From positions 124,001 through 188,000 of the forward strand of contig CALVMC010000002.1 in NCBI GenBank assembly GCA_944342015.1: DNA of 64,000 nt, in the 5' to 3' direction. Numbering within the stretch: the stretch's first letter is position 1; each line of letters starts with the position of its first letter. The position numbers and the translations under genes are program-made. Shown one piece after another: positions 39,172 through 51,155 of the stretch. Origin of the DNA: an uncultured Clostridia bacterium (lineage in GTDB: Bacteria > Bacillota > Clostridia > Christensenellales > CALVMC01). The notes below the pieces were generated by a model. That model was not told the DNA's origin. It did no database searches and worked only from the letters and a program-made list of their open reading frames with translations.

Positions 39172-39200
39172 TTTGAACGGATAAAAATTATTAAAGTAAA

Positions 39201-39224
39201 AACAGCGACTTTTAAGTCGCTGTT
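39201..39224. terminator. bidirectional terminator between spoIIID and the coiled-coil gene
   Basis: AACAGCGACTT, TT, AAGTCGCTGTT: an 11-bp perfect stem with A/T flanks on both sides, placed between two converging genes. Confidence 0.85.
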
Positions 39225-39245
39225 TAAATTTAAATACCTAGATTA

Positions 39246-42200
39246 TTATTTAAGAACCACGGCTTTACCGCCTGCAATCATTATAAGTTTAGCTGCTTGT
39301 TCGGTAAATTCGTTTGCAATAATTGTAAGCTCTTTATTCAAAGGTTTATCTGATACAGTAACCCTTACCCTCTGAATTTTATCTTTATTTAACAGACCTT
39401 TTTCTTTCATTGCGTCGATATCGGCAACCTCGCCGTCATTGAAATTATCGGCAATCTGAGAAACGGTAAGTTCAACAACCGGTGCGTTTTTATATTTGAT
39501 ATTATCGGCGCTGCTTTTTACGAGAATTAAGGCTTCTGCGCTCTCGTCGTCAAGCTTTGGTATATCGGTAATGTAAGCAGGTTTTTTAATTACCTTTTTA
39601 AGCTTTGCAAGAGCCGTTTCGTAAGGCGAAACTCCGTAAACCAACTGCGAGAAGTTAAGCGGACTGAAATTCGATTTAGGTTTGATAGAGAAATTTTTCA
39701 TAACCATATCGACAAGTTCCATAGCATATTTGACTCCCCTGTTGGAAGCGACTCTTAAAAGCGTAGGTGTTTGCTCATACATTTTAAGTGCAGACATATC
39801 CTTAACGAAGTATTTAGGATCAACTATCGCAGGATTGATATTGAAATAAAGTTTAAGAGTTTTATTTCTCAGCGAAAGTTTAATCAAAGGCAATCTGTTA
39901 TAAGTGAAGGTATCGAACTTATAAGAGAACCTGTCGTTAACTCCTATAAAACTCAAAATATAATTTTTTATTTTGGTAAAGTTATCCTGAGTTACCTTGT
40001 CGGCTTCTTTAAGCCTTACAAGCAGTTTAGGCGCCCTTTTACCGCTTGAAGAAACTTCTTCTTCATCGTCCTCTTCATCGAAAATATCGTCGTCAAAAGC
40101 GGCGGCTGCTTCGTTACCGTACTCGATAGCATTATCTATATTGATAATGTTATTCGAATGGTTTTTAAAGGCAGGAGTAAACTCTTTTTCGATATTGAAG
40201 GCTTCGCTGTCAATATTTTTATCGCCGTCGTTTGTACTGTCTTTAATATCTTTATTATTAATATCAGATAATTTCAAACTGTCAGAACTCGATTTACCGT
40301 TCTTTAACTTGGAAGATTTTTCTTTTTTGGAAGGACTTTGTTTCGTCAATCCTAATATATGACTTTCAGGACTGCTTTCAAATTCGCTTACATCGATATA
40401 ATCGCCTTCATCTTCGGCATTATCCGCAAAACCTAAGGAAGCGGCTTTTTTATAATTTTTCTGAATAGCGTTGAACTGTCTTTCGATTTCGTTTTTCTTT
40501 GCGTCAAGCATTCTGCGTTTGCTGTATGAAATATAATCTTTTACGATTTTTTCTCTGAGTCTGATGCTTTCGATTTTGTTTCTGAGCTGATTGAGTTTGT
40601 CGAGCAACTCGAACTCTTTGATTTTCTTGACATCGCCGAGTTTTATATCGGAATTTTCCAGTCTGTACTGTTCGATAACGGAATTAATATAAGCTTCCAA
40701 ATCGTTAGATGCGTCAATCATATGAAGATTCTTTTTAGACTTGGTTTTCTTTTTAGGTCTTGCATTGTATTCTAGCAGTTTCTGCAAGTTTTCTTCGTTG
40801 TTTTCAAGTAAATACTGAATTTCGATTTCGGCACCGCTTCTGAGTTCTTTTGCTTTGAGTTCGGCTTTTTCCCTGAGTTTTTTAGCCTCTCTTTCAGCCT
40901 TATCGAGAATTTGCAAAGCTTGTTTTTCCATAGCGAGTTTAACATCCTGGGCTTTGCTACCCGCATCGGAACGCAGTTCAAAGGCCTCTTTTTCGGCTTC
41001 GAGTTTTAAAAGATTGGCTTCTTTTTCAGCATTGTTTTTGATCTGTTCGGCTTCTATTTCGGTTTTAAGTCTGATTTTGTCGGCTTCGAGTCCTGCTTTG
41101 GAAATAATAGATTCAGCCCTTTCTTCCGAAACTTTAAGAACGCCGTATGCTTGCTTTTCGATACTCTTTTTAATGGCTTCCGCTTCTTTTGCGCTGAGAG
41201 TCTGTAATTTTTCAGCCTCCTGTTTTCCGCTGCGCATAATTTCGTCACGACTGTTAACTGCGTCACGGATTTCCTCACGAAGCTGTTTTTCTATTTCAGC
41301 CTGTTTTGCAAGTTTTTCCTTTAACTGTTCGATTTCTTTGTTTAACTGACTTTTTTTAGCTTCGCTTTCAATCTGAGCCGAAAGCCTGATTTTTTCGACT
41401 TCGAGAAGAGCCTGTTCTTTGGTTTTGATAGCATCGAGTTCAGCCTGTCTTTTAAGTGCAAGAATTTCTTCTTCCGCCTTGGCTTTTGCTTCGATAGCTT
41501 CTCTTTCTAACTGTTGTTTTTTCAAAATAGCCTGTTTATTAATATCGTTAATCATGGATTGAAGTTTTATTTCTGAATCCTGAATAACTTTATCGGCATT
41601 TTTTTCTGCAATTTCTATAAGAGAATCGCCTTTTTTGTTTGCCTCGTTTTTGATTTCATCGGCAATTTTTCTTGCTTCGTCTAAAATTCTGGCGGCTTCT
41701 TTTTCTGCATTCGCTCTCTTTTCGTTGATAAGACGGGTTTTTTCAATGCGTTCTTCTTCGGCATTTTTAATATATTCTTCTCTTGAATCGAGAACGATTC
41801 TGTGTTTTTCTGCTTCGGCATTTGCAACATCGATTATGCGCTTAGCGTCTTCTTCGGCTTTAAGGCGCAGTTTTTCTTTTTCTTCCTCGGCATTTTCGAG
41901 TATCATCTGAGCTTCCGCCTCGGCTCTTTGAAGTATTTTTAAGGATTCGAGTTCGGCTTCCATTTTTGCTTCTTCTCTGCCGCCTTCTACCCTGCTGTTG
42001 ATCTCCTGCGCTCTTTTTTGCGCTTTCTGAATTATTTCACCCGCTTTGTTTTGAGAACTTGCAATAAGAGCGGAAACAGCTTCTTCGTTTTCTTTACGAA
42101 TCCTATCGGCTTCGTTGACAGCGTCTTCGAGTACTTTATTAAGTTTTGCCCTTAATTCTTCCTCGCTTGTACCGTCAAGAGAATCGGATAATCTTTTTGC

Positions 42201-45200
42201 CTCCTCTTCGGTTTCTCTTTCCACACTATTTAATAATTCTTCGGCCTTTTTCTTTGCGTCGGCGATAATGTTTTCGGCTTCCTGCTCGGCTTTTTCGAGA
42301 ATCTTCGACTTTTCTTCTTCGGCGTCCTCTTTAATGTGTTTAGCCGTAATTTCGGCTTCGTCTTTAATTCTCTTGCTGTCTGATTCGAGTACCGTTTCTT
42401 TCTTTTCGATTTCTTCGTCTGCGGCGGCGATAAGTTCGGAAGCTTTGTTTTCAGCCTTATCGCTGAGTTCGGAAGCTACCTTTTCGTATTCTTGTTTTAT
42501 TCTTTCGATATCAGCGTCTCTGCGCTCTTTGATTTCACGGGCAGCCAAATCTGCCTTTTTATTGATTTCGTCGACTAACTTATCGGTTCTGATTCTGATT
42601 GCCGCAATTTTTTCAGAAGTAAATATATCTGAATTTTTATTCAGAAGTTCGATTTCATAATCGCCCTTATCGATAATTTTCTGAGCTTCTTCTTCGGCTT
42701 TTGCTCTGATTTTATCGACTTCTAATTTAGCGCGCTCTCGTAAAGCCTCAGTTTGTTTTGCACCTTCGTGGAGTAAGGCTTCTGCACTTTTTTCGGCTTC
42801 GTCAATAATATTTTTTGCAGAATTTTCCGATTCGTTCAGCTTATTATCGGCATTGATTTCAGCGTCGGACAAAAGCAAATCCGCTTCGTGTTTGGATTTA
42901 TCATAGTATTCCTTAGCCTGACTTTCATATTGGGATTTAATTTTTTCGACTTCCTGTTCGGCTTGGGAAATAATTTCTTTTGCTTTCAATTCCGCTTTGG
43001 ATTTGATGTCTGCAACATTATTTTCAAGAGCTTTCTGATTTAATATCTGAGACTTATAATCGTTAAGTTCTTTATCAGAGTTTTCTTTAATATTTCTGAT
43101 TAAAACGGAAGCTTCGTTTCTAATTCTTGCAGCTTCTTTTTCTGCGTTTAATTTAATTGCGGAAGCCTGTTCTGCGATTTTTTCTTTAATATCCTTAACA
43201 ATAATATCGGCATCGAAGATATCGTCTTCCAAAGCAAGCGCACCGAGTTTATCCATTTCTTTATAAGAATTATTTTTTAAAGAAATGGCGTTTTTAAGTC
43301 TGTCGATTCTTCTGTCAGCTTTCTGTTTAATGTTCTTTGCGACAGTTTCGGCGCGCTCTCTTATTCTCTGTGCCTCTCTTCTTGCGTCTTCGTTGACGTC
43401 TCTTATTTTCTGTTCATAACGGGATTTAACGTCGACGATTTCTTTTTCGGTTTGAAGTTTGATAATTTCAGCCTGTTTTTCTGCTTCTTTTACAAGCTCT
43501 TCCGATTGTTTTTCGGCATCGGGCGAAGAACCTTTAAGAATTCTTTTTTCTGCGCCGGATTTAACTTCGGCAATACTGTTTTGAGCACTGCTTCTTATAT
43601 CGTTTTGCTTTAAGAGAGCTTCTTCTTTGAGTTTTTCGATATCTCTTTCGAGTTCTTCGTTGATTTCTATTTCTTTTTTGCGTGCGTGTTCGATAAGCGA
43701 TTGGGCTTCTCTTTCGGCGTCTTTATGGATAGCGAAAAGTTCCTTGCTTATGGAATTTACATTTTCGACGCTCTTTCTTCTTATATTGATTACTTTCTCT
43801 GCTTCTTCCTTAACAATCTGGGCGGCTTTTTCTGCTTGAACCTTGAATCTTTCTATTTCTTTTTCTGCATTTTCACGAAGTTGTTTTATTCTGTCTTCGA
43901 GTTCAACCGTATAAGATTCCATTTGACTTCCGGCATCATCGTAAATTCTTTGAGAACTAATTTCAGCCTCGGATTTTATTTCGGCGATGTCGGAATCGCT
44001 GTCGAAAGATTTTTTCCTTATTTCGAGAAGATTTCTGTATGCGTCTTTTTTAACTTTTTCGGTTTTATAAGCGCAATCTCTTCTGAGTCTGTCGATTTCT
44101 TCTTTCTCTTCCCTTTCGAGGGACTCTATTTTTTCTTTTGCGTTTTCTAATATTTTGTTAGCTTTTTCTTCCGCTTCGTCCAAAATTTCATCGGCTTCCT
44201 GTTCGGCTTTTTCTCTCATTTCGATTAAATCGTTATAATCGATTTTCTGTACGGAAGAATATTTGCTCTTGAGGTCTTCTATTTCTTTTGCGTACTGTTT
44301 TTTCATGAGCTGAATTTCTTTTTCAGCTGCGGCTTTGACTATCTGAGCTTCTTTCTCTGCGGCTGCGCTTAAAATTTCGCTTTCTCTGCTTGCGTCGATT
44401 AACAAAGCACGGGCTTCGTTTTCAGCGTCGTTCTGAATATCGTAAATTTCCTTTTCGGTTTTTTGTCTGAATTTTCTTTCGATTTCCGAAGAAAGTTCAT
44501 TTACATCCTTATTGAAAGGAAGGGCTAAATTATATTCTTCCGAACCGCCTTTTGAAACATCTATACCCGCACGGGCGGAAAGTATGTCGGCAAATTTTTG
44601 GTTCTGCTCTCTGATTTCGGTGCGGATTCTGTTTTCGAGCAAACCTATTCTGTCGTTGACTTCTTTTTGAATTTTCTGTTCGATTTCTAACGGAGAAGCA
44701 GAATAATCAGAACTTTTTGCCGGTAAAAATCTCATATTTTCCATGACATAAAGTTTGTTTTCAAGGGTACTCATTTTATTGAGCATTTCCATTTTGTCTC
44801 TGGTAATGCGATTTTCCTGGTCGATTCTGTCTCTGAAACTAAGCTCGGTTCCGATTTTTTCTATTGCGCTATCGATACTTCTGAATTTTTCCATAATGGC
44901 ATTATCGAAAGTATTGACGGGAAGCTGACCTGCACGCATTTGTTCAAGACGGCTTAATCTGTTATTAAGTTCTTCGTATACTGCATTGTATTTATTTTTA
45001 GAAAGGTTTTTAGAGTAACCGCCTTCAAGGGCATTAAGTCTGCCTGCAAGGTCGTTGAACATGGAAAGGTCGTCCGAAGTTGCGCCGTAACCGCCGTCGA
45101 GTCTGTTAATGCGCCTTACCATATCGTCAAGAAGTCTACCGTTTTTATTTGAAAGTTCTGCGATTTCACGCTCGGCGTTACTCTTTTCCGCCCGCATTTC

Positions 45201-47564
45201 TTCAAGAACGGTTTCAATATCTTTTAATTTATTATTGAGAATAACCATATCTCTGTCGGACTTATCGGTAAAATCGAGCATATCGTCTTTGGGCGGTTTT
45301 CCGGTAAGACTGCTTTCGATTTTTTCTATTCTTCTGGTCATTTCTCTGATAAGACCCGACTTTTCGTCCATTCTGTCGTTTCTTAAAGTTTCCTGTTTGG
45401 CTTTTTCCAAAAGACCTTTTGTTTCTTCTATCTGATTAAGTCTGACTTCGATACTTGCGATACTTTCACTGTTCAGCATTTGTTCATTTAAGACTTCGTC
45501 GAAAGCGTTATCGCTAACATTTTCTATATTACGCTGAGCAGCTTCTATATTATTGAGACGCTGTTCGATATCGTCAAAAAGGACATTCAATTTAAGCAGA
45601 TTATCTTCCTGCTGTACTTTTAATTCGTTATAAGCGGTATCGTTGATAGCACCCCCGCCGAACGACATACTGTTTTGTGCAATCATAAGGTCGTTCTGGA
45701 AATTTTCTATTGTAGCAATCCATTCTTCGAGTTGGGCGACTTTGTTTTGGAGTTCGAAGTTAGAAGCGCCGGGACCGTCCATACGGCGGAATTTATCTGA
45801 AACATCGTATTCGAGATTTCTGTAATTTGAAACCAAACCGTCAAGTTCGGATTTAAGGTTATTGATTCTGCTTTCTATGGGCGTAATATAGTTGTCGAAA
45901 AGGTACTTTTCGCTTTCGGAAAGTTCCCTTCTCAGAGTTTCGCTGGAAATTCTGTCATTGTTGTAAGGATTTAAAAAGTTATTGAATCCGTACATATTAG
46001 ACATAGAATCAATAGGTCTTGGAGTCTCGTACATATTCGGAGCATAGTAATTAGGTCTGGGATTGGCGGTAGAATATGTCGGTCTGTCTGAAACCTGAGA
46101 ATAATAGTTTTGCGGTGCCGAATAAGGCTGCTGTGCAAATTGATTTTGAAAAGCCTGAGGAGATTGCTGATATTGAGAAGGTTGCTGGAAAGGAGGCTGT
46201 TCAAAAGGAGTTTGCATCTGAGGAGCCTGTTGAGGTTGTTGATAAAATTCCTGCGGTTGATTTACAGGTTGCTGTTGATAAACTTGCTGCGGTTGATTTA
46301 CAGGTTGAGACTGCTCGAAATTATTTTGCTGATATTGAAGAGGAGCTTGGGGTTGTTGATAAACGGTCTGCTGAGGTTGAGGAGCGGACTGAGCATAAAC
46401 GGTATTATCCTGAGCCTGTTGCGGATTATTAACAGAAGCAGCAGGTTGTTCAATAGGCTTTTCGGGTTCGGGAGCAGCGTAGATATTTGAATTTTGCTCG
46501 GAACTCTGTTCCTCTTTAATTTCGTTTTTGTCGTAATAATCCTTAACGCTTTCGCCTGCGTGTTCGGTGAGTTTGTCAAAAGAATCTGCATTCGTATCGT
46601 CGGAAAAATGGAAAAATCCTGCTTCGTCGCTAACAACAGGCAAAGTTTCGTTGCCGGTATATTGATAATCTTTTTTTCTTTTCTTTTTAGCCTTTTTCTG
46701 TTTTTTCTTACCGACAATAGGCATACCGTTCATTTCGGCAATAATCTCGTCTTTTTTCTTTTCCCATTTCTTCCAAAGAAGGTATCCGTAAATTTCTTTA
46801 TCTTCGGGAGCGACCGCCTGATAAATCTGAGTTTTGATTTCGGAATTAAGATAATAACCTACATTCTTCTTAACGCACTTTTTATCGAAAAGAGAAATTT
46901 CGCCTACCAAAACCTTTTTGATAAGTTTTTTAACGGAAAAGTAACTGCTGATATTGTAAAGCATTAAAAGCAGTAAAATAACAGGAGGAACAATTAATAA
47001 AGCAGAGGCGATATAAATATTATCGTACAGTTCGAGATAGGAAATAATGTATGGGGATATAGTTCCTATATCGCCAAGGACATAATCGCTTTCGATAAGA
47101 ACCTCATCGGTTGAATCTGTCGATATAGAGTACCAAACATTGATATTATCACGGTATATTTCTTCTATTATACCGACGAAAACTTCGGAAGTAGCATTTT
47201 CATAATTTTCGTTAGCGATATCGCTTCCTTCCGAAGGAGTGGGTATATAAGTATAATAAGCGATAACATCTCCGACAATGTAAGCTGCGGGATCGACCGT
47301 TATATTTACTGCTAATTTATCGCCGTAATTATAGTTTGCGACTTTTGCCGTATTGTCGTTAGCCTTGACTTCCACATAATAATAATTAAGAAAAGCGCCG
47401 TCAACATTCATGAATTCACGGACTATTATATTATATGAGCCGAAAAACATTAAAGCTAATACAAAAGGTAAAAGCAAAATAAACAGAAAGTTTACAATTC
47501 TTCTTTTCGTTATGAGTGAAATTTTTTTAGACGCTTTTTTTACATCGCTTAAAATATCAGGCAT
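39246..47564 (-). CDS. giant membrane-anchored coiled-coil protein with S26-like and uL15-like domains, 2,772 aa
   Basis: The start is ATG 47564, 7 nt after GGGGGAG. Order: a basic cytoplasmic start; TM1 (~23-46); an external domain (~58-168) with VGDVIAY, FVGIIEEI, WYSISTDSTDEV and VLGDIG, resembling the signal peptidase (S26) fold without its Ser or His; TM2 (~184-205); a Lys-rich segment; a Gln/Pro-rich stretch (~355-510); about 1,900 residues of Glu/Lys/Ala-rich coiled coil, much in 11-residue repeats; an acidic linker; a globular domain (2527-2630, FDTFTYNRLPLIKL and LRNKTLKLYFNI) that I have seen in other Clostridia proteins without a name; and a last 80 residues like the uL15 C-terminal half. 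A two-pass topology puts the coil in the cytoplasm. It is second in an operon with a smaller relative. Function unknown: a scaffold tethering something, perhaps ribosomes, to the membrane is a guess. Confidence 0.88.
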   Translation of the reverse strand: MPDILSDVKKASKKISLITKRRIVNFLFILLLPFVLALMFFGSYNIIVREFMNVDGAFLNYYYVEVKANDNTAKVANYNYGDKLAVNITVDPAAYIVGDVIAYYTYIPTPSEGSDIANENYENATSEVFVGIIEEIYRDNINVWYSISTDSTDEVLIESDYVLGDIGTISPYIISYLELYDNIYIASALLIVPPVILLLLMLYNISSYFSVKKLIKKVLVGEISLFDKKCVKKNVGYYLNSEIKTQIYQAVAPEDKEIYGYLLWKKWEKKKDEIIAEMNGMPIVGKKKQKKAKKKRKKDYQYTGNETLPVVSDEAGFFHFSDDTNADSFDKLTEHAGESVKDYYDKNEIKEEQSSEQNSNIYAAPEPEKPIEQPAASVNNPQQAQDNTVYAQSAPQPQQTVYQQPQAPLQYQQNNFEQSQPVNQPQQVYQQQPVNQPQEFYQQPQQAPQMQTPFEQPPFQQPSQYQQSPQAFQNQFAQQPYSAPQNYYSQVSDRPTYSTANPRPNYYAPNMYETPRPIDSMSNMYGFNNFLNPYNNDRISSETLRRELSESEKYLFDNYITPIESRINNLKSELDGLVSNYRNLEYDVSDKFRRMDGPGASNFELQNKVAQLEEWIATIENFQNDLMIAQNSMSFGGGAINDTAYNELKVQQEDNLLKLNVLFDDIEQRLNNIEAAQRNIENVSDNAFDEVLNEQMLNSESIASIEVRLNQIEETKGLLEKAKQETLRNDRMDEKSGLIREMTRRIEKIESSLTGKPPKDDMLDFTDKSDRDMVILNNKLKDIETVLEEMRAEKSNAEREIAELSNKNGRLLDDMVRRINRLDGGYGATSDDLSMFNDLAGRLNALEGGYSKNLSKNKYNAVYEELNNRLSRLEQMRAGQLPVNTFDNAIMEKFRSIDSAIEKIGTELSFRDRIDQENRITRDKMEMLNKMSTLENKLYVMENMRFLPAKSSDYSASPLEIEQKIQKEVNDRIGLLENRIRTEIREQNQKFADILSARAGIDVSKGGSEEYNLALPFNKDVNELSSEIERKFRQKTEKEIYDIQNDAENEARALLIDASRESEILSAAAEKEAQIVKAAAEKEIQLMKKQYAKEIEDLKSKYSSVQKIDYNDLIEMREKAEQEADEILDEAEEKANKILENAKEKIESLEREEKEEIDRLRRDCAYKTEKVKKDAYRNLLEIRKKSFDSDSDIAEIKSEAEISSQRIYDDAGSQMESYTVELEDRIKQLRENAEKEIERFKVQAEKAAQIVKEEAEKVINIRRKSVENVNSISKELFAIHKDAEREAQSLIEHARKKEIEINEELERDIEKLKEEALLKQNDIRSSAQNSIAEVKSGAEKRILKGSSPDAEKQSEELVKEAEKQAEIIKLQTEKEIVDVKSRYEQKIRDVNEDARREAQRIRERAETVAKNIKQKADRRIDRLKNAISLKNNSYKEMDKLGALALEDDIFDADIIVKDIKEKIAEQASAIKLNAEKEAARIRNEASVLIRNIKENSDKELNDYKSQILNQKALENNVADIKSKAELKAKEIISQAEQEVEKIKSQYESQAKEYYDKSKHEADLLLSDAEINADNKLNESENSAKNIIDEAEKSAEALLHEGAKQTEALRERAKLEVDKIRAKAEEEAQKIIDKGDYEIELLNKNSDIFTSEKIAAIRIRTDKLVDEINKKADLAAREIKERRDADIERIKQEYEKVASELSDKAENKASELIAAADEEIEKKETVLESDSKRIKDEAEITAKHIKEDAEEEKSKILEKAEQEAENIIADAKKKAEELLNSVERETEEEAKRLSDSLDGTSEEELRAKLNKVLEDAVNEADRIRKENEEAVSALIASSQNKAGEIIQKAQKRAQEINSRVEGGREEAKMEAELESLKILQRAEAEAQMILENAEEEKEKLRLKAEEDAKRIIDVANAEAEKHRIVLDSREEYIKNAEEERIEKTRLINEKRANAEKEAARILDEARKIADEIKNEANKKGDSLIEIAEKNADKVIQDSEIKLQSMINDINKQAILKKQQLEREAIEAKAKAEEEILALKRQAELDAIKTKEQALLEVEKIRLSAQIESEAKKSQLNKEIEQLKEKLAKQAEIEKQLREEIRDAVNSRDEIMRSGKQEAEKLQTLSAKEAEAIKKSIEKQAYGVLKVSEERAESIISKAGLEADKIRLKTEIEAEQIKNNAEKEANLLKLEAEKEAFELRSDAGSKAQDVKLAMEKQALQILDKAEREAKKLREKAELKAKELRSGAEIEIQYLLENNEENLQKLLEYNARPKKKTKSKKNLHMIDASNDLEAYINSVIEQYRLENSDIKLGDVKKIKEFELLDKLNQLRNKIESIRLREKIVKDYISYSKRRMLDAKKNEIERQFNAIQKNYKKAASLGFADNAEDEGDYIDVSEFESSPESHILGLTKQSPSKKEKSSKLKNGKSSSDSLKLSDINNKDIKDSTNDGDKNIDSEAFNIEKEFTPAFKNHSNNIINIDNAIEYGNEAAAAFDDDIFDEEDDEEEVSSSGKRAPKLLVRLKEADKVTQDNFTKIKNYILSFIGVNDRFSYKFDTFTYNRLPLIKLSLRNKTLKLYFNINPAIVDPKYFVKDMSALKMYEQTPTLLRVASNRGVKYAMELVDMVMKNFSIKPKSNFSPLNFSQLVYGVSPYETALAKLKKVIKKPAYITDIPKLDDESAEALILVKSSADNIKYKNAPVVELTVSQIADNFNDGEVADIDAMKEKGLLNKDKIQRVRVTVSDKPLNKELTIIANEFTEQAAKLIMIAGGKAVVLK
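39249..39488 (-). other. uL15-like C-terminal domain
   Basis: Residues 2693-2772. VVELTVSQIADNFNDGEV corresponds to the VVNLxxLxRFxDGxEV strand of ribosomal protein L15. AMKEKGLLNKDKIQRVRV corresponds to LLxExGLIxKLxxGVKI. KELTIIANEFTEQAAKLI then AGGKAVVL corresponds to KLTVKAxxFSxSAKxxI then AAGGxxEVI. Order and spacing agree throughout. No ribosomal protein gene is nearby. Confidence 0.75.
39675..39986 (-). other. globular domain of a recurrent but unnamed Clostridia type
   Basis: Residues ~2527-2630: KIKNYILSFIGVNDRFSYKF, FDTFTYNRLPLIKLSLRNK, TLKLYFNINP, then ASNRGVKYAMELVDMVM. From memory, similar segments (KxELLSYKxVxSRxS, then ARFxxRGKTLCLYLAL, then DRRxKYAxxLI) occur in other large Clostridia proteins. 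I know no function. Confidence 0.5.
40800..41030 (-). repeat. seven exact-length 11-residue (hendecad) repeats
   Basis: Consecutive 11-mers: AEKEANLLKLE, AEKEAFELRSD, AGSKAQDVKLA, MEKQALQILDK, AEREAKKLREK, AELKAKELRSG, AEIEIQYLLEN. This is the best-phased sample of a pattern that runs through much of 40.7-45.9 kb. Hendecads form right-handed or nearly straight coiled coils, as in the ATP synthase b subunit. Confidence 0.85.
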
Positions 47565-47594
47565 TACTATACTCCCCCGCAACCGCTAAAAGCC

Positions 47595-49682
47595 CTAACT
47601 GTTTTTTTTCTCGGACTTTTTCTTGGAATTTCCAGGGATAAAAGGTCCGGAAGTCTTTAAGACAGAAGATGCAGATGTTTTTTCGTTTTTGTTATTAGTA
47701 TCTGCATTTTTTTTGTTTTCCTTATTATTTCTTTCTTCTTTTACTATTTTATCGATACGAGAAGAAAAGTTTGCGCTACTATCCGATTTTGAAACTATAT
47801 TTGTATGTTTAATATCGTAGTTAGAATTTACGGCATTTGCTCTGTCGATATAGCTTTTAGTATAAAGCATATTGGAAGCCTTACTGGTTGTATTTGCATT
47901 AACAGTGGGCTTATAAGTGCCGTTTTCGATAGCTGCTGCTTTTTTCTTTGCTTCTCTTTTCTGCGCCCTTTTGTAGGCTATTTCGGTTTTAGAAGGGCTG
48001 TTTTTAATTTTATCCGAAACGGTAGGATTAAAGACGAGATTTGATTTTGCGCCGACAATACCGGAAGAACCGGAAGTCGGAATTCTTTTCTCGATATGAG
48101 TATTGTCGAAACTTACGGCGCTTTTGACAATAGGACCTGCATTGGTTAAATTGGATCTGTTTACCGTAGGTCTTTCTTGTTTTCCTGTTTGTTCTTTTAA
48201 TTTTTTCTCTTTGTCTATGAGAGCGGATACAAACTTTTTATATTTTTCGTCCTTTTTGTTTTTACCTTTTTTGTTATTAAGATATTTAGCGCCGTAAACG
48301 CTTAAATTTCTGTATTCCTTTTCGGAAAGAGCGTTTTGTTCATTCAGTTTTGCTTTTTCCAAATAAGCCGATAATTCGTCTTGCTGATTTTTTGCAACAG
48401 TTTCTCTGACTTCACGGATAATTCTTTCTTCTTCTTCAAAATCCTTACCGTAAAGGATTTCCTTTGCGCTTTCCTGATTTCTGCGAACGGTATCGTTGTA
48501 TCCGCTTCTGCCTAAATCTTCTCTTACCTCGTTTATGATTTTTTCTTCTTGCTCTAAATCTTTACCGTAAAGAATTTCCTTTGCATTTTCTCTGTTTCTT
48601 TTAACTTTTTCGTAAAGTTCTCTGTTGATTTTTTCGTTGCTTAATCTTGCGTTCATGGGAGCAACGGTTTTCTGTTTGTTTTCAATGTTACCCGATTCGA
48701 GAAGTTTTACCGAATTCTTTTTCTTTGAAGAATTATCGGGTTTAGTTAAAGTTACCTGTTTGTTGCCGTAACCGTAAGGAACGAGATTTTTCTGATTATC
48801 GGTATCTCTTACATGTCTTTTATTTGCATTTACATACTCATTATTATGATTTCTATCGTAAACTTCCCCGGCGGTATCCAATTCTATCTCTTCGTAAAGT
48901 TCCTCATTATTCTTTTTAGGTTTATATTTATTTTCATGTTTTACCTTTTCGGGTTGAGCGCTGTTAGCCGCTGCATTTCTCACGGGATAAGAAGCGCTTG
49001 CATAATCGTTTCTTCTTGCCGAATAGAAAGAAGCAGGATAGCCTTTCATTCTTGCTGCATATTTTACCTTTTTTGAGTTCTTTTCTTTTGTTAAAAGGAA
49101 TATTAAAATGTTAGCGATAATCAGAATAAGAAAAGGAATGGAAATAGAAAGACCGATGTAAGCGGGAGAATTGATATTGAGAATATTCTGAGCAGTAACG
49201 GACGAAGCGGAGATGCAAGCGCCTAAAACGCTTTTATCTTCAACGAAAACGGTAACGCCGCTGTCGTCGTCGGTCTGTAAGTAATAATTTATAGTTCTGT
49301 CTATACTGTTTCTTTCGATAGCGATAACCTTTCCTATAAAAACTCTGTTTTCGTTAGAAACATCGAAATAACTATTGTTTGCGTAAAAAACAGTGTAAGC
49401 AATCACATCGCCTACAATAATCGATTTATCGACATCGACGGCTATTTTTTCGTCGTTACGGAAACCTGAAGCATTGAAAGTAAAATTCGTACTTCCGGCA
49501 CTTGTAGCGGTAATAGCCGAAGTATTACCGAAAGAAGGCACATTGGAATTAAGGCTTGTACTGATAAGAACCACAAGAGCGATGGCGAAAAAAACCAAGG
49601 TTATCGGTACGATAATCGCATTGGTAATAAGATAATATAAAGTGCGTTTACTTCCACGCTGTTTTTCCGAAGCCAAATCCAT
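47595..49682 (-). CDS. membrane protein with S26-like external domain and long basic cytoplasmic tail, 695 aa
   Basis: Starts at ATG 49682 after AAAGGGAAG. TM1 spans ~18-41 and TM2 ~174-197. Between them lies an external domain with VGDVIAY (90-96), FIGKVIAI (115-122), YYLQTDDDSGV (133-143) and VLG (152-154), in the same order as in the 2,772-aa partner and in SipW-type signal peptidases, but with no catalytic SGSM serine or HR histidine. The ~500-residue cytoplasmic tail is Lys/Asn/Glu-rich and mostly disordered. It holds a duplicated motif, ENAKEILYGKDLEQEEKII and ESAKEILYGKDFEEEERII. The partner gene begins 30 bp downstream, so they form an operon. The shared external domains suggest the two proteins pair across their outer faces. 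Function unknown. Confidence 0.8.
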   Translation of the reverse strand: MDLASEKQRGSKRTLYYLITNAIIVPITLVFFAIALVVLISTSLNSNVPSFGNTSAITATSAGSTNFTFNASGFRNDEKIAVDVDKSIIVGDVIAYTVFYANNSYFDVSNENRVFIGKVIAIERNSIDRTINYYLQTDDDSGVTVFVEDKSVLGACISASSVTAQNILNINSPAYIGLSISIPFLILIIANILIFLLTKEKNSKKVKYAARMKGYPASFYSARRNDYASASYPVRNAAANSAQPEKVKHENKYKPKKNNEELYEEIELDTAGEVYDRNHNNEYVNANKRHVRDTDNQKNLVPYGYGNKQVTLTKPDNSSKKKNSVKLLESGNIENKQKTVAPMNARLSNEKINRELYEKVKRNRENAKEILYGKDLEQEEKIINEVREDLGRSGYNDTVRRNQESAKEILYGKDFEEEERIIREVRETVAKNQQDELSAYLEKAKLNEQNALSEKEYRNLSVYGAKYLNNKKGKNKKDEKYKKFVSALIDKEKKLKEQTGKQERPTVNRSNLTNAGPIVKSAVSFDNTHIEKRIPTSGSSGIVGAKSNLVFNPTVSDKIKNSPSKTEIAYKRAQKREAKKKAAAIENGTYKPTVNANTTSKASNMLYTKSYIDRANAVNSNYDIKHTNIVSKSDSSANFSSRIDKIVKEERNNKENKKNADTNNKNEKTSASSVLKTSGPFIPGNSKKKSEKKNS

Positions 49683-49731: not shown

Positions 49732-49760
49732 AGTATGTAATATTTATTTATTAATGTCAA
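49732..49760 (-). promoter_or_regulatory. probable promoter of the coiled-coil operon
   Basis: A perfect minus-strand TTGACA (49755-49760), 17 nt, then CATACT. The -10 is weak for sigma-A. CATACTAAT also resembles sporulation sigma -10 boxes, so the controlling sigma factor is open. Confidence 0.45.
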
Positions 49761-49921: not shown

Positions 49922-49958
49922 TAAAAAATAAAAAAATCCGCAGTATAAACTGCGGATT
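49922..49958 (-). terminator. intrinsic terminator of the M23 operon
   Basis: Minus strand AATCCGCAGT, loop TTAT, ACTGCGGATT, then a T-rich run (TTTTTATTTTTT). A 10-bp perfect stem starting about 35 bp after the stop codon. Confidence 0.9.
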
Positions 49959-49992: not shown

Positions 49993-50667
49993 TTATTTTT
50001 CCTGCGCTACAAGATATTCGGCGGGATTTACGAGTTGTCCGTTTACTCTGACTTCGAAATGCAAGTGCGCCGCATCGAGATGTTCGTTGTCATAGCTAGT
50101 TGAAATAACGCCAATTTGCTGTCCTTGTTCAACGGTATCGCCAACCGCTACTTTAAGGTCGCTTCCCAAAGAGCTGTAAACGCAGGTTATTCCGTTATCG
50201 CTTTTGATAGTTACAGTATAACCGTCGCTGTGCAATCTGTCGGAAATACTTTCCACAACCCCTGAAAGCACACTTACCACGGCTGCGTTCTCTTCGCCTG
50301 CAATGTCAATACCGGTATGAACTGCGTAATGACCTAATTCGGCAGAATAAACAGGTTCGGTAAGAGAAAATTCCCTGAATATTTCATAGTTTCCCGATAC
50401 CGGAAAAATGAAATCCTCTTCTTCGTCAATCGTGGGCTTATCATCGACATCGGGCAAGATTTCACCCGGTTTTTCGTCTACGACATTGTTATCGCCGGGC
50501 TCTTCCGTTACAGGAGTGTTTGTCGTTCCGCTCTGATTAGCGTTTGCAAGAACTACAGCAACAGTTATTACGGTTGCAATAATAACGATACAAACACCGG
50601 TTAAAATGTAATACAAATTTCGCTTAAAGAAAGCAGAAATTGCTTTTGTGTTAATTTTCTTTTCCAT
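49993..50667 (-). CDS. M23-family (LytM) membrane protein, SpoIIQ-like, 224 aa
   Basis: Starts at ATG 50667 after GGAGGT. One N-terminal membrane helix (~18-42) is followed by a Pro/Glu/Asp-rich linker (~45-86) and a LytM domain. The zinc ligands are all present: H117 and D121 in HTGID, and the HLH of residues 201-203 (HLHFEV). So, unlike Bacillus SpoIIQ, it could be an active peptidoglycan endopeptidase; clostridial SpoIIQ keeps these residues. Size, single helix and a YwmB-like gene upstream fit SpoIIQ, which forms the forespore side of the channel with SpoIIIAH. Other single-pass M23 proteins look alike, so the assignment is tentative. It is co-transcribed with the preceding gene (20-bp gap) and ends in a strong terminator. 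Confidence 0.75.
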   Translation of the reverse strand: MEKKINTKAISAFFKRNLYYILTGVCIVIIATVITVAVVLANANQSGTTNTPVTEEPGDNNVVDEKPGEILPDVDDKPTIDEEEDFIFPVSGNYEIFREFSLTEPVYSAELGHYAVHTGIDIAGEENAAVVSVLSGVVESISDRLHSDGYTVTIKSDNGITCVYSSLGSDLKVAVGDTVEQGQQIGVISTSYDNEHLDAAHLHFEVRVNGQLVNPAEYLVAQEK

Positions 50668-50687
50668 AAATACCTCCGTATTGTTTA

Positions 50688-51155
50688 TTAATAACCGCCT
50701 AAATTAATAGGACTTGCTAACATGATTACATTACTGCTGAAAGATAACTCAACATTTATTTTCTTTCCGTTTGTTTCGATATAATCGGAAAACAAAGGAC
50801 TGAAACCGTACTCGATATAAATTCCGTCTAAAGACTGCGTCGTGACTACTTTGATTTTTAATTTATCTCGTATATCCTCAAAAGCCTTCATATCGCCGTT
50901 TACGGTAATTCTCTCGCCTGCTATTTCTTTTGCCGAAGCTTTCAAAGTGTCGGCTTCAAAAAGAAGACTTCTTCCGACCTTATATGAGCCGTTATCGAAA
51001 ACTTCGAAATTTTCATTATCCGTAGCCAACGATTTACAATAAACTTCATATACTGCCCCGTCCGGAAGAAATTCTGTCGCAGACAAAAAATCTTTCGGCG
51101 AGTATGTACAGATTAAAATTATAATACCTGCTGCAATCAATAAAGCCTTTTTCAT
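50688..51155 (-). CDS. secreted or anchored small protein, possibly YwmB-like, 155 aa
   Basis: Starts at ATG 51155 after AAGGGTGG. Residues 1-17 are a short hydrophobic signal or anchor. The rest is alpha/beta. The closing segment INVELSFSSNVIMLASPINL then GGY resembles the end of YwmB-family proteins (xNxQVAxRYNxxxxxTxxxxGSPxI then xxY). It is shorter than typical YwmB (about 230 aa). In Bacillus, ywmB lies near murA and spoIID, in the same part of the sporulation and envelope gene set; here it precedes a SpoIIQ-like M23 gene. I regard the family call as weak. No promoter is visible directly upstream. The gene begins just after the symporter's terminator. Confidence 0.6.
   Translation of the reverse strand: MKKALLIAAGIIILICTYSPKDFLSATEFLPDGAVYEVYCKSLATDNENFEVFDNGSYKVGRSLLFEADTLKASAKEIAGERITVNGDMKAFEDIRDKLKIKVVTTQSLDGIYIEYGFSPLFSDYIETNGKKINVELSFSSNVIMLASPINLGGY

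Follow-up and report, generated by a model that had tools for sequence, protein, structure and literature searches.

Two probable pseudo-signal-peptidases of SipW descent as candidate outer anchors of a cell scaffold in an uncultured Clostridia bacterium

The closest described precedent for a signal peptidase that works without cleaving is SipA of Streptococcus pyogenes, in which the catalytic Ser is replaced by Asp48 and the Lys by Gly85, and which, devoid of peptidase activity, is indispensable for the polymerisation and assembly of pili (PMC4049620). For SipW, a role in solid-surface biofilms that is independent of peptidase activity is described, as far as the citing account goes (Terra 2012 as cited in PMC5817204). 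Here, we describe two adjacent minus-strand genes in a 64,000-nucleotide stretch of DNA (the window: positions 124,001 to 188,000 of contig CALVMC010000002.1, assembly GCA_944342015.1) from an uncultured Clostridia bacterium of the order Christensenellales. They encode a small (695 aa) and a large (2,772 aa) protein with a common layout: the N-terminus is short, two membrane helices enclose an outside domain of ~110–130 aa, and the chain ends in a cytoplasmic tail. In both proteins the outside domain is very probably an S26B/SipW domain that has lost catalysis. As an overall explanation, we favor, with some reserve, a pair of pseudo-signal-peptidases in which a former enzyme now forms the outer anchor point for a cell scaffold. 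A first-pass annotation of the sequence had suggested that a non-catalytic S26 fold serving as an external interaction module, combined with large cytoplasmic coils, would be a new architecture; with the precedent of SipA (PMC4049620), a signal peptidase fold without catalysis is in itself not new in principle.

The assignment of both outer domains to S26B rests on profile searches made in the two directions. We searched 396 genomes of the order with a profile built on the genus's four known domains (from the window genome, G000, and its sister species, G001), and all its matches outside the genus were SipW-type peptidases adjoining TasA/camelysin-like genes, except for two (in G036 and G320) that were rejected as chance similarity of membrane helices. 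The same profile in a class-wide search yielded two matches outside the genus, both of them SipW genes beside camelysin/TasA-like genes. Conversely, a profile of eight active SipW enzymes, free of any sequence from the window genus, recovered the large protein from the same 396 genomes (E = 2.5e-16 in G001 and E = 3e-12 in G000). The small protein was marginal (19 bits) with an earlier hidden Markov model (HMM) of eight active sequences, and its case was settled by an HMM of 37 active SipW, which scored the large and small proteins at 62.4 and 40.1 bits vs. a maximum of 20.2 among 9,000 local shuffles. Thus, the resemblance to SipW-type peptidases proposed in the first-pass annotation is borne out for both proteins. 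The ectodomain of the large protein alone reached 30.0 bits with an HMM of active SipW (at most 16.3 in 8,000 shuffles). The two outer domains also align with each other across their full length at 27–30% identity, and in G001 the large-protein domain as a query retrieves the small gene (E = 3.5e-4). The catalytic columns are fixed by human SEC11A and SEC11C, which the active profile matches at the Ser and the His of these proteins. Together with the reciprocal profile matches, this alignment argues that both outer domains are S26B by descent.

Loss of the catalytic residues was assessed against 39 other homologue rows from the fetched loci, including the active SipW of the same genome. Ser-Met is present in 39/39 of these rows, and the His in all rows covering the site. 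In the large protein of both species, the Ser-Met position reads ANDN, with Asp70 on the Ser column, the His column is occupied by Gly131, and the KGxxN block, in full KG(D/S/T)xN, is deleted. In the small protein, Gly117 stands on the His column, the Ser-Met context is gone, and TDDDSG takes the place of the KGxxN block. Of the earlier proposal that Ser and His are both absent, the part concerning His thus holds for the two proteins, whereas the part concerning Ser holds firmly for the large protein only, as the small one has Ser64. The common order of motifs between the two helices, also read from the sequence at first pass, stands as well: the shared VGDVIAY is followed by FVGII or FIGKV and, further on, by WYSISTD and VLG at residue 162 (large) or YYLQTD and VLG at residue 152 (small, ATG numbering). 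The spacing given for the (Y/W)Y...TD element needs a small correction, the gap being 3 residues in the large protein and 2 in the small one. The same genome encodes an active SipW with TasA-like neighbors as well as a LepB-type peptidase, and since both normal enzymes are kept, the pair appears dispensable for cleavage. At the locus of this active SipW (G000 C10; L037 87-4904), the neighbors are three TasA/camelysin-like genes and a BspA/DUF285-type repeat protein.

The coordinates of the pair and its features are collected in Table 1. The genes are 30 bp apart, with the large one downstream, and are well supported as a two-gene operon by the terminator-like hairpins that flank them and by the promoter-like site ahead of the small gene, in line with the earlier reading of an operon of two membrane proteins. 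The most likely start of the large gene is the ATG at 47564, preceded by GGGGGAG, rather than the in-frame TTG at 47582, six codons before it, which would give 2,778 aa. The next gene in the window after the large one is plsY.

Table 1. Features of the gene pair and its flanks (window positions; residue numbers approximate where marked ~)
Feature	Position	Strand	Remarks
Large gene	39246..47564	-	2,772 aa from ATG: probable dead SipW-like domain, hendecad coil, order-wide C-terminal module
Large: first membrane helix, residues ~24-47	47424..47495	-	Hydrophobic; aligned with first helix of SipW homologues
Large: extracytoplasmic S26B-like domain, residues ~48-180	47025..47423	-	HMM scores
Large: ANDN at catalytic Ser-Met position	47352..47363	-	Asp70 on Ser column
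Large: VGDVIAY, residues 97-103	47256..47276	-	Retained GDxI strand of S26B
Large: FVGII, residues 129-133	47166..47180	-	Gly131 at catalytic His position
Large: second membrane helix, residues ~184-210	46935..47015	-	Alignment with homologues
Large: cytoplasmic domain after second helix, residues ~205-275	46740..46952	-	
Large: coiled-coil region, residues ~546-2330	40575..45929	-	
Large: C-terminal module, residues ~2506-2772	39249..40049	-	~115-aa domain plus uL15-like end
Large: uL15/L18e-like end, last 70 residues	39258..39467	-	Pfam PF00828, 23.0 bits vs. gathering 21.5, marginal
Small gene	47595..49682	-	695 aa: probable dead SipW-like domain, low-complexity cytoplasmic tail
Small: first membrane helix, residues ~16-42	49557..49637	-	
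Small: extracytoplasmic S26B-like domain, residues ~43-172	49167..49556	-	
Small: SAGST at Ser-Met position	49488..49502	-	Ser64 possibly on Ser column, no Met
Small: VGDVIAY, residues 90-96	49395..49415	-	
Small: FIGKV, residues 115-119	49326..49340	-	Gly117 at His position
Small: second membrane helix, residues ~173-197	49092..49166	-	
Promoter-like TTGACA-17-CATACT upstream of small gene	49732..49760	-	Consensus match only
Terminator-like hairpin ending SpoIIQ-like gene	49935..49958	-	Upstream operon limit
Strong terminator-like hairpin after large gene	39200..39225	-	Downstream operon limit

A second domain, located after the second membrane helix, links the large protein to extended SipW enzymes. 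This domain (DKKCVKKNVGYYLNSEIKTQIYQAVAPEDKEIYGYLLW in the large protein) is common to extended active SipW of the sister family f28 (e.g., DPICVKHEIGFKMDNKSKYKVLAQANDEDKNEYISLLW); its HMM scores the large protein at 32.7 bits vs. at most 17.5 in ~10,000 shuffles, and the small protein is without it. The family f28 (L019-L023, L069-L073) comprises extended SipW peptidases, several of which carry this undescribed cytoplasmic domain. Two genomes of this family (G207 and G289) encode two extended SipW as tandem genes, with a TasA-like gene and rpoB/rpoC next to them; a simple orthology of our pair with these tandem genes was not adopted, given that the CxK-type version of the domain is on the first gene there and on the second here. 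In another relative, G387, the genes der and plsY directly follow an extended SipW, and spoIVA comes further on. The large gene of the window thus has one neighbor, plsY, in common with it, which we take as no more than a hint.

Beyond this domain, the large protein consists of a Gln/Pro-rich linker, a coil of up to ~1,780 residues and a C-terminal module. The large cytoplasmic coil proposed at first pass is supported for this protein, with an 11-residue (hendecad) period that is clear in residues ~1050–2330 (autocorrelation 0.34 at lag 11). The 51-residue Scy/FilP repeat was rejected, the dominant period being 11, and the NCBIfam Scy model gave a partial match only (62.3 bits vs. a cut-off of 1040). 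The uL15-like end had been named at first pass along with the pair as the best candidate for an undescribed system, of which its distribution makes it no evidence. It belongs to an order-wide module and is no ribosomal protein, and it is not specific to the system, because the module occurs in 180/297 genomes of the order on varied proteins. Often present in several copies per genome (loci L078-L087), the module is elsewhere attached to multi-span membrane proteins, other coils and small repeat proteins, and the last 265 residues match other families of the order at E values down to 1e-32; no copy joined to a SipW domain was seen elsewhere among these occurrences. Only its uL15-like part has a Pfam name, and no family name was found for the whole. 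It is a common, docking-like module.

Both proteins are under strong purifying selection. The ratio of nonsynonymous to synonymous substitution rates (dN/dS), computed between the window species and G001, is 0.052 for the large gene and 0.123 for the small one. It falls to 0.032 for the outer domain of the large protein (a rough value, with dS near saturation), 0.076 for that of the small protein, 0.023 for the C-terminal module and 0.013 for the domain after the second helix. Because such selection extends to both outer domains, the pair is better described as pseudo-signal-peptidases than as decaying genes. As to whether the genes are conserved as a pair, a check named at first pass, they are indeed kept together, but within the sampled genomes (396 of the order, plus the class-wide profile search) solely in two species, both of one genus. 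A tree built from 41 sequences unites the small- and large-protein domains in one clade (support 98/98.6), at a distance from the active SipW that the genome also encodes. The simplest reading of their origin, not proven, would be a loss of catalysis followed by duplication.

Several observations weigh against the explanation that we favor for the pair or limit its reach. The clade of small and large domains unites two long branches, neither of which is firmly placed when the other is left out. AlphaFold2 models of the two ectodomains have a mean predicted local distance difference test (pLDDT) score of only 46 and 39, which is attributed to there being too few sequences, four for each. Run against solved structures, a profile of the dead domains gave chance matches only. 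No TasA/camelysin-like or pilin gene adjoins the pair in the open reading frame (ORF) lists around it; nor was any pilin or sortase-like gene seen there, the ORFs having been read by eye with no family search of every ORF. The anchoring role itself draws on architecture and analogy. Finally, one HMM alignment of the small protein puts its Ser64 on the column of the nucleophile, and the two alignments disagree, which leaves the small protein called dead with slightly less certainty than the large one. This Ser64 is also the starting point of an alternative in which the pair retains a catalytic or regulatory peptidase function, either with a base supplied from elsewhere or by serving, as a dominant-negative or substrate-handing subunit, the active SipW, which with its TasA-like genes is indeed present elsewhere in the genome. 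The Gly in place of His in both paralogues, the missing Ser-Met context and KGxxN block, the distance of the pair from the SipW/TasA-like locus, and the large coil, for which this alternative has no explanation, all make it quite improbable in our estimation. Still far less credible is a mere convergence, with the likeness to SipW reduced to a small beta domain between two helices of no common descent. It would accord with the poor predicted models and with the silence of public family libraries, which recognize neither outer domain (the large protein matches TIGR02228 at no better than E = 1 to 1.7). It is contradicted by scores of 40–62 bits vs. at most 20 in shuffles, by reciprocal profile matches that fall on SipW, and by the second shared domain after the membrane helix.

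A further alternative places the pair in sporulation, as a specific envelope scaffold whose dead domains act between the two forespore membranes. The 1.4-Mb genome is probably that of a spore former, because SpoIVA is intact elsewhere in it and a SpoIIQ-like gene lies immediately upstream of the operon. In the relatives G307 and G387 (L071, L073), an extended SipW is located directly upstream of, or close to, spoIVA, and the -10 element CATACT(A) loosely fits a sporulation sigma factor by our own reading. Against this, the SpoIIQ-like gene and the pair have a terminator between them, spoIVA is ~61 kb away from the pair in the window genome, the -35 element TTGACA is a perfect housekeeping match, and the two neighborhoods are a small sample. 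On balance, we regard a sporulation-specific function as unlikely. The upstream segment (window 49993-51155, minus strand) carries the SpoIIQ-like M23 gene together with a DUF1779 gene (YwmB-type, below cut-off). Farther away, window positions 3604-30834 (minus strand) are occupied by one uninterrupted reading frame of 9,076 aa, which starts with a lipoprotein-type signal (LLIAVFLCVFFVACNP) and probably encodes a giant surface protein.

Returning to the pair as two pseudo-signal-peptidases, the scheme we propose starts from an extended SipW-type (S26B) peptidase, of the type still active in the sister family, that would have lost its catalytic residues and become two paralogues. Each protein is expected to span the membrane twice, with the former peptidase domain outside, where it may bind a protein, a peptide or a partner domain without cutting. 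The two paralogues could act together, and the large one might couple the outer contact to its cytoplasmic coil of 1,300–1,800 residues, with the C-terminal module probably docking on a shared partner in the cytoplasm. By architecture and analogy, a role in anchoring without cleavage is a tentative assignment. Its more specific form, a trans-envelope cytoskeletal linker in which two non-cutting SipW-derived receptors, probably cooperating, sense or hold an external protein and join it via the hendecad coil to the docking module, is speculative. A limited literature search returned no described example of what this apparently is, i.e., a SipW/SEC11-type peptidase devoid of catalysis and retained as a paired membrane scaffold. 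Irrespective of the pair, two undescribed parts have a wider reach in the order, namely the cytoplasmic domain of extended SipW and the C-terminal module.

Compared with known systems, the pair shares with SipW/SEC11 enzymes two membrane helices flanking a domain that in the pair is presumably a beta domain, an identical motif order and a significant profile homology of both proteins; it differs by the lack of an adjoining substrate gene and by the addition of 500–2,500 cytoplasmic residues. The likeness to Scy/FilP consists of a long coil with an 11-residue period and the partial match to the Scy model, whereas the window protein is membrane-anchored and its score is far under the cut-off, so that probably just the type of coil is held in common. 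In SipW of B. subtilis, unlike in the window pair, the catalytic residues are intact and there is no giant tail. What it offers as a parallel, within the cited account of it, is a SipW-type protein that does not rely on peptidase function for its biofilm role (Terra 2012 as cited in PMC5817204). The nearest parallel is SipA (LepA), likewise derived from a signal peptidase, which carries Asp in place of Ser and Gly in place of the base, does not cleave, and is presumed to bind a surface component (PMC4049620). SipA is small, of the S26A type and encoded in a pilus locus, whereas the window pair is very probably S26B-derived and equipped with a giant coil; if our interpretation is true, it carries the principle of SipA beyond S26A, into the S26B branch and into the anchoring of a cytoskeleton.

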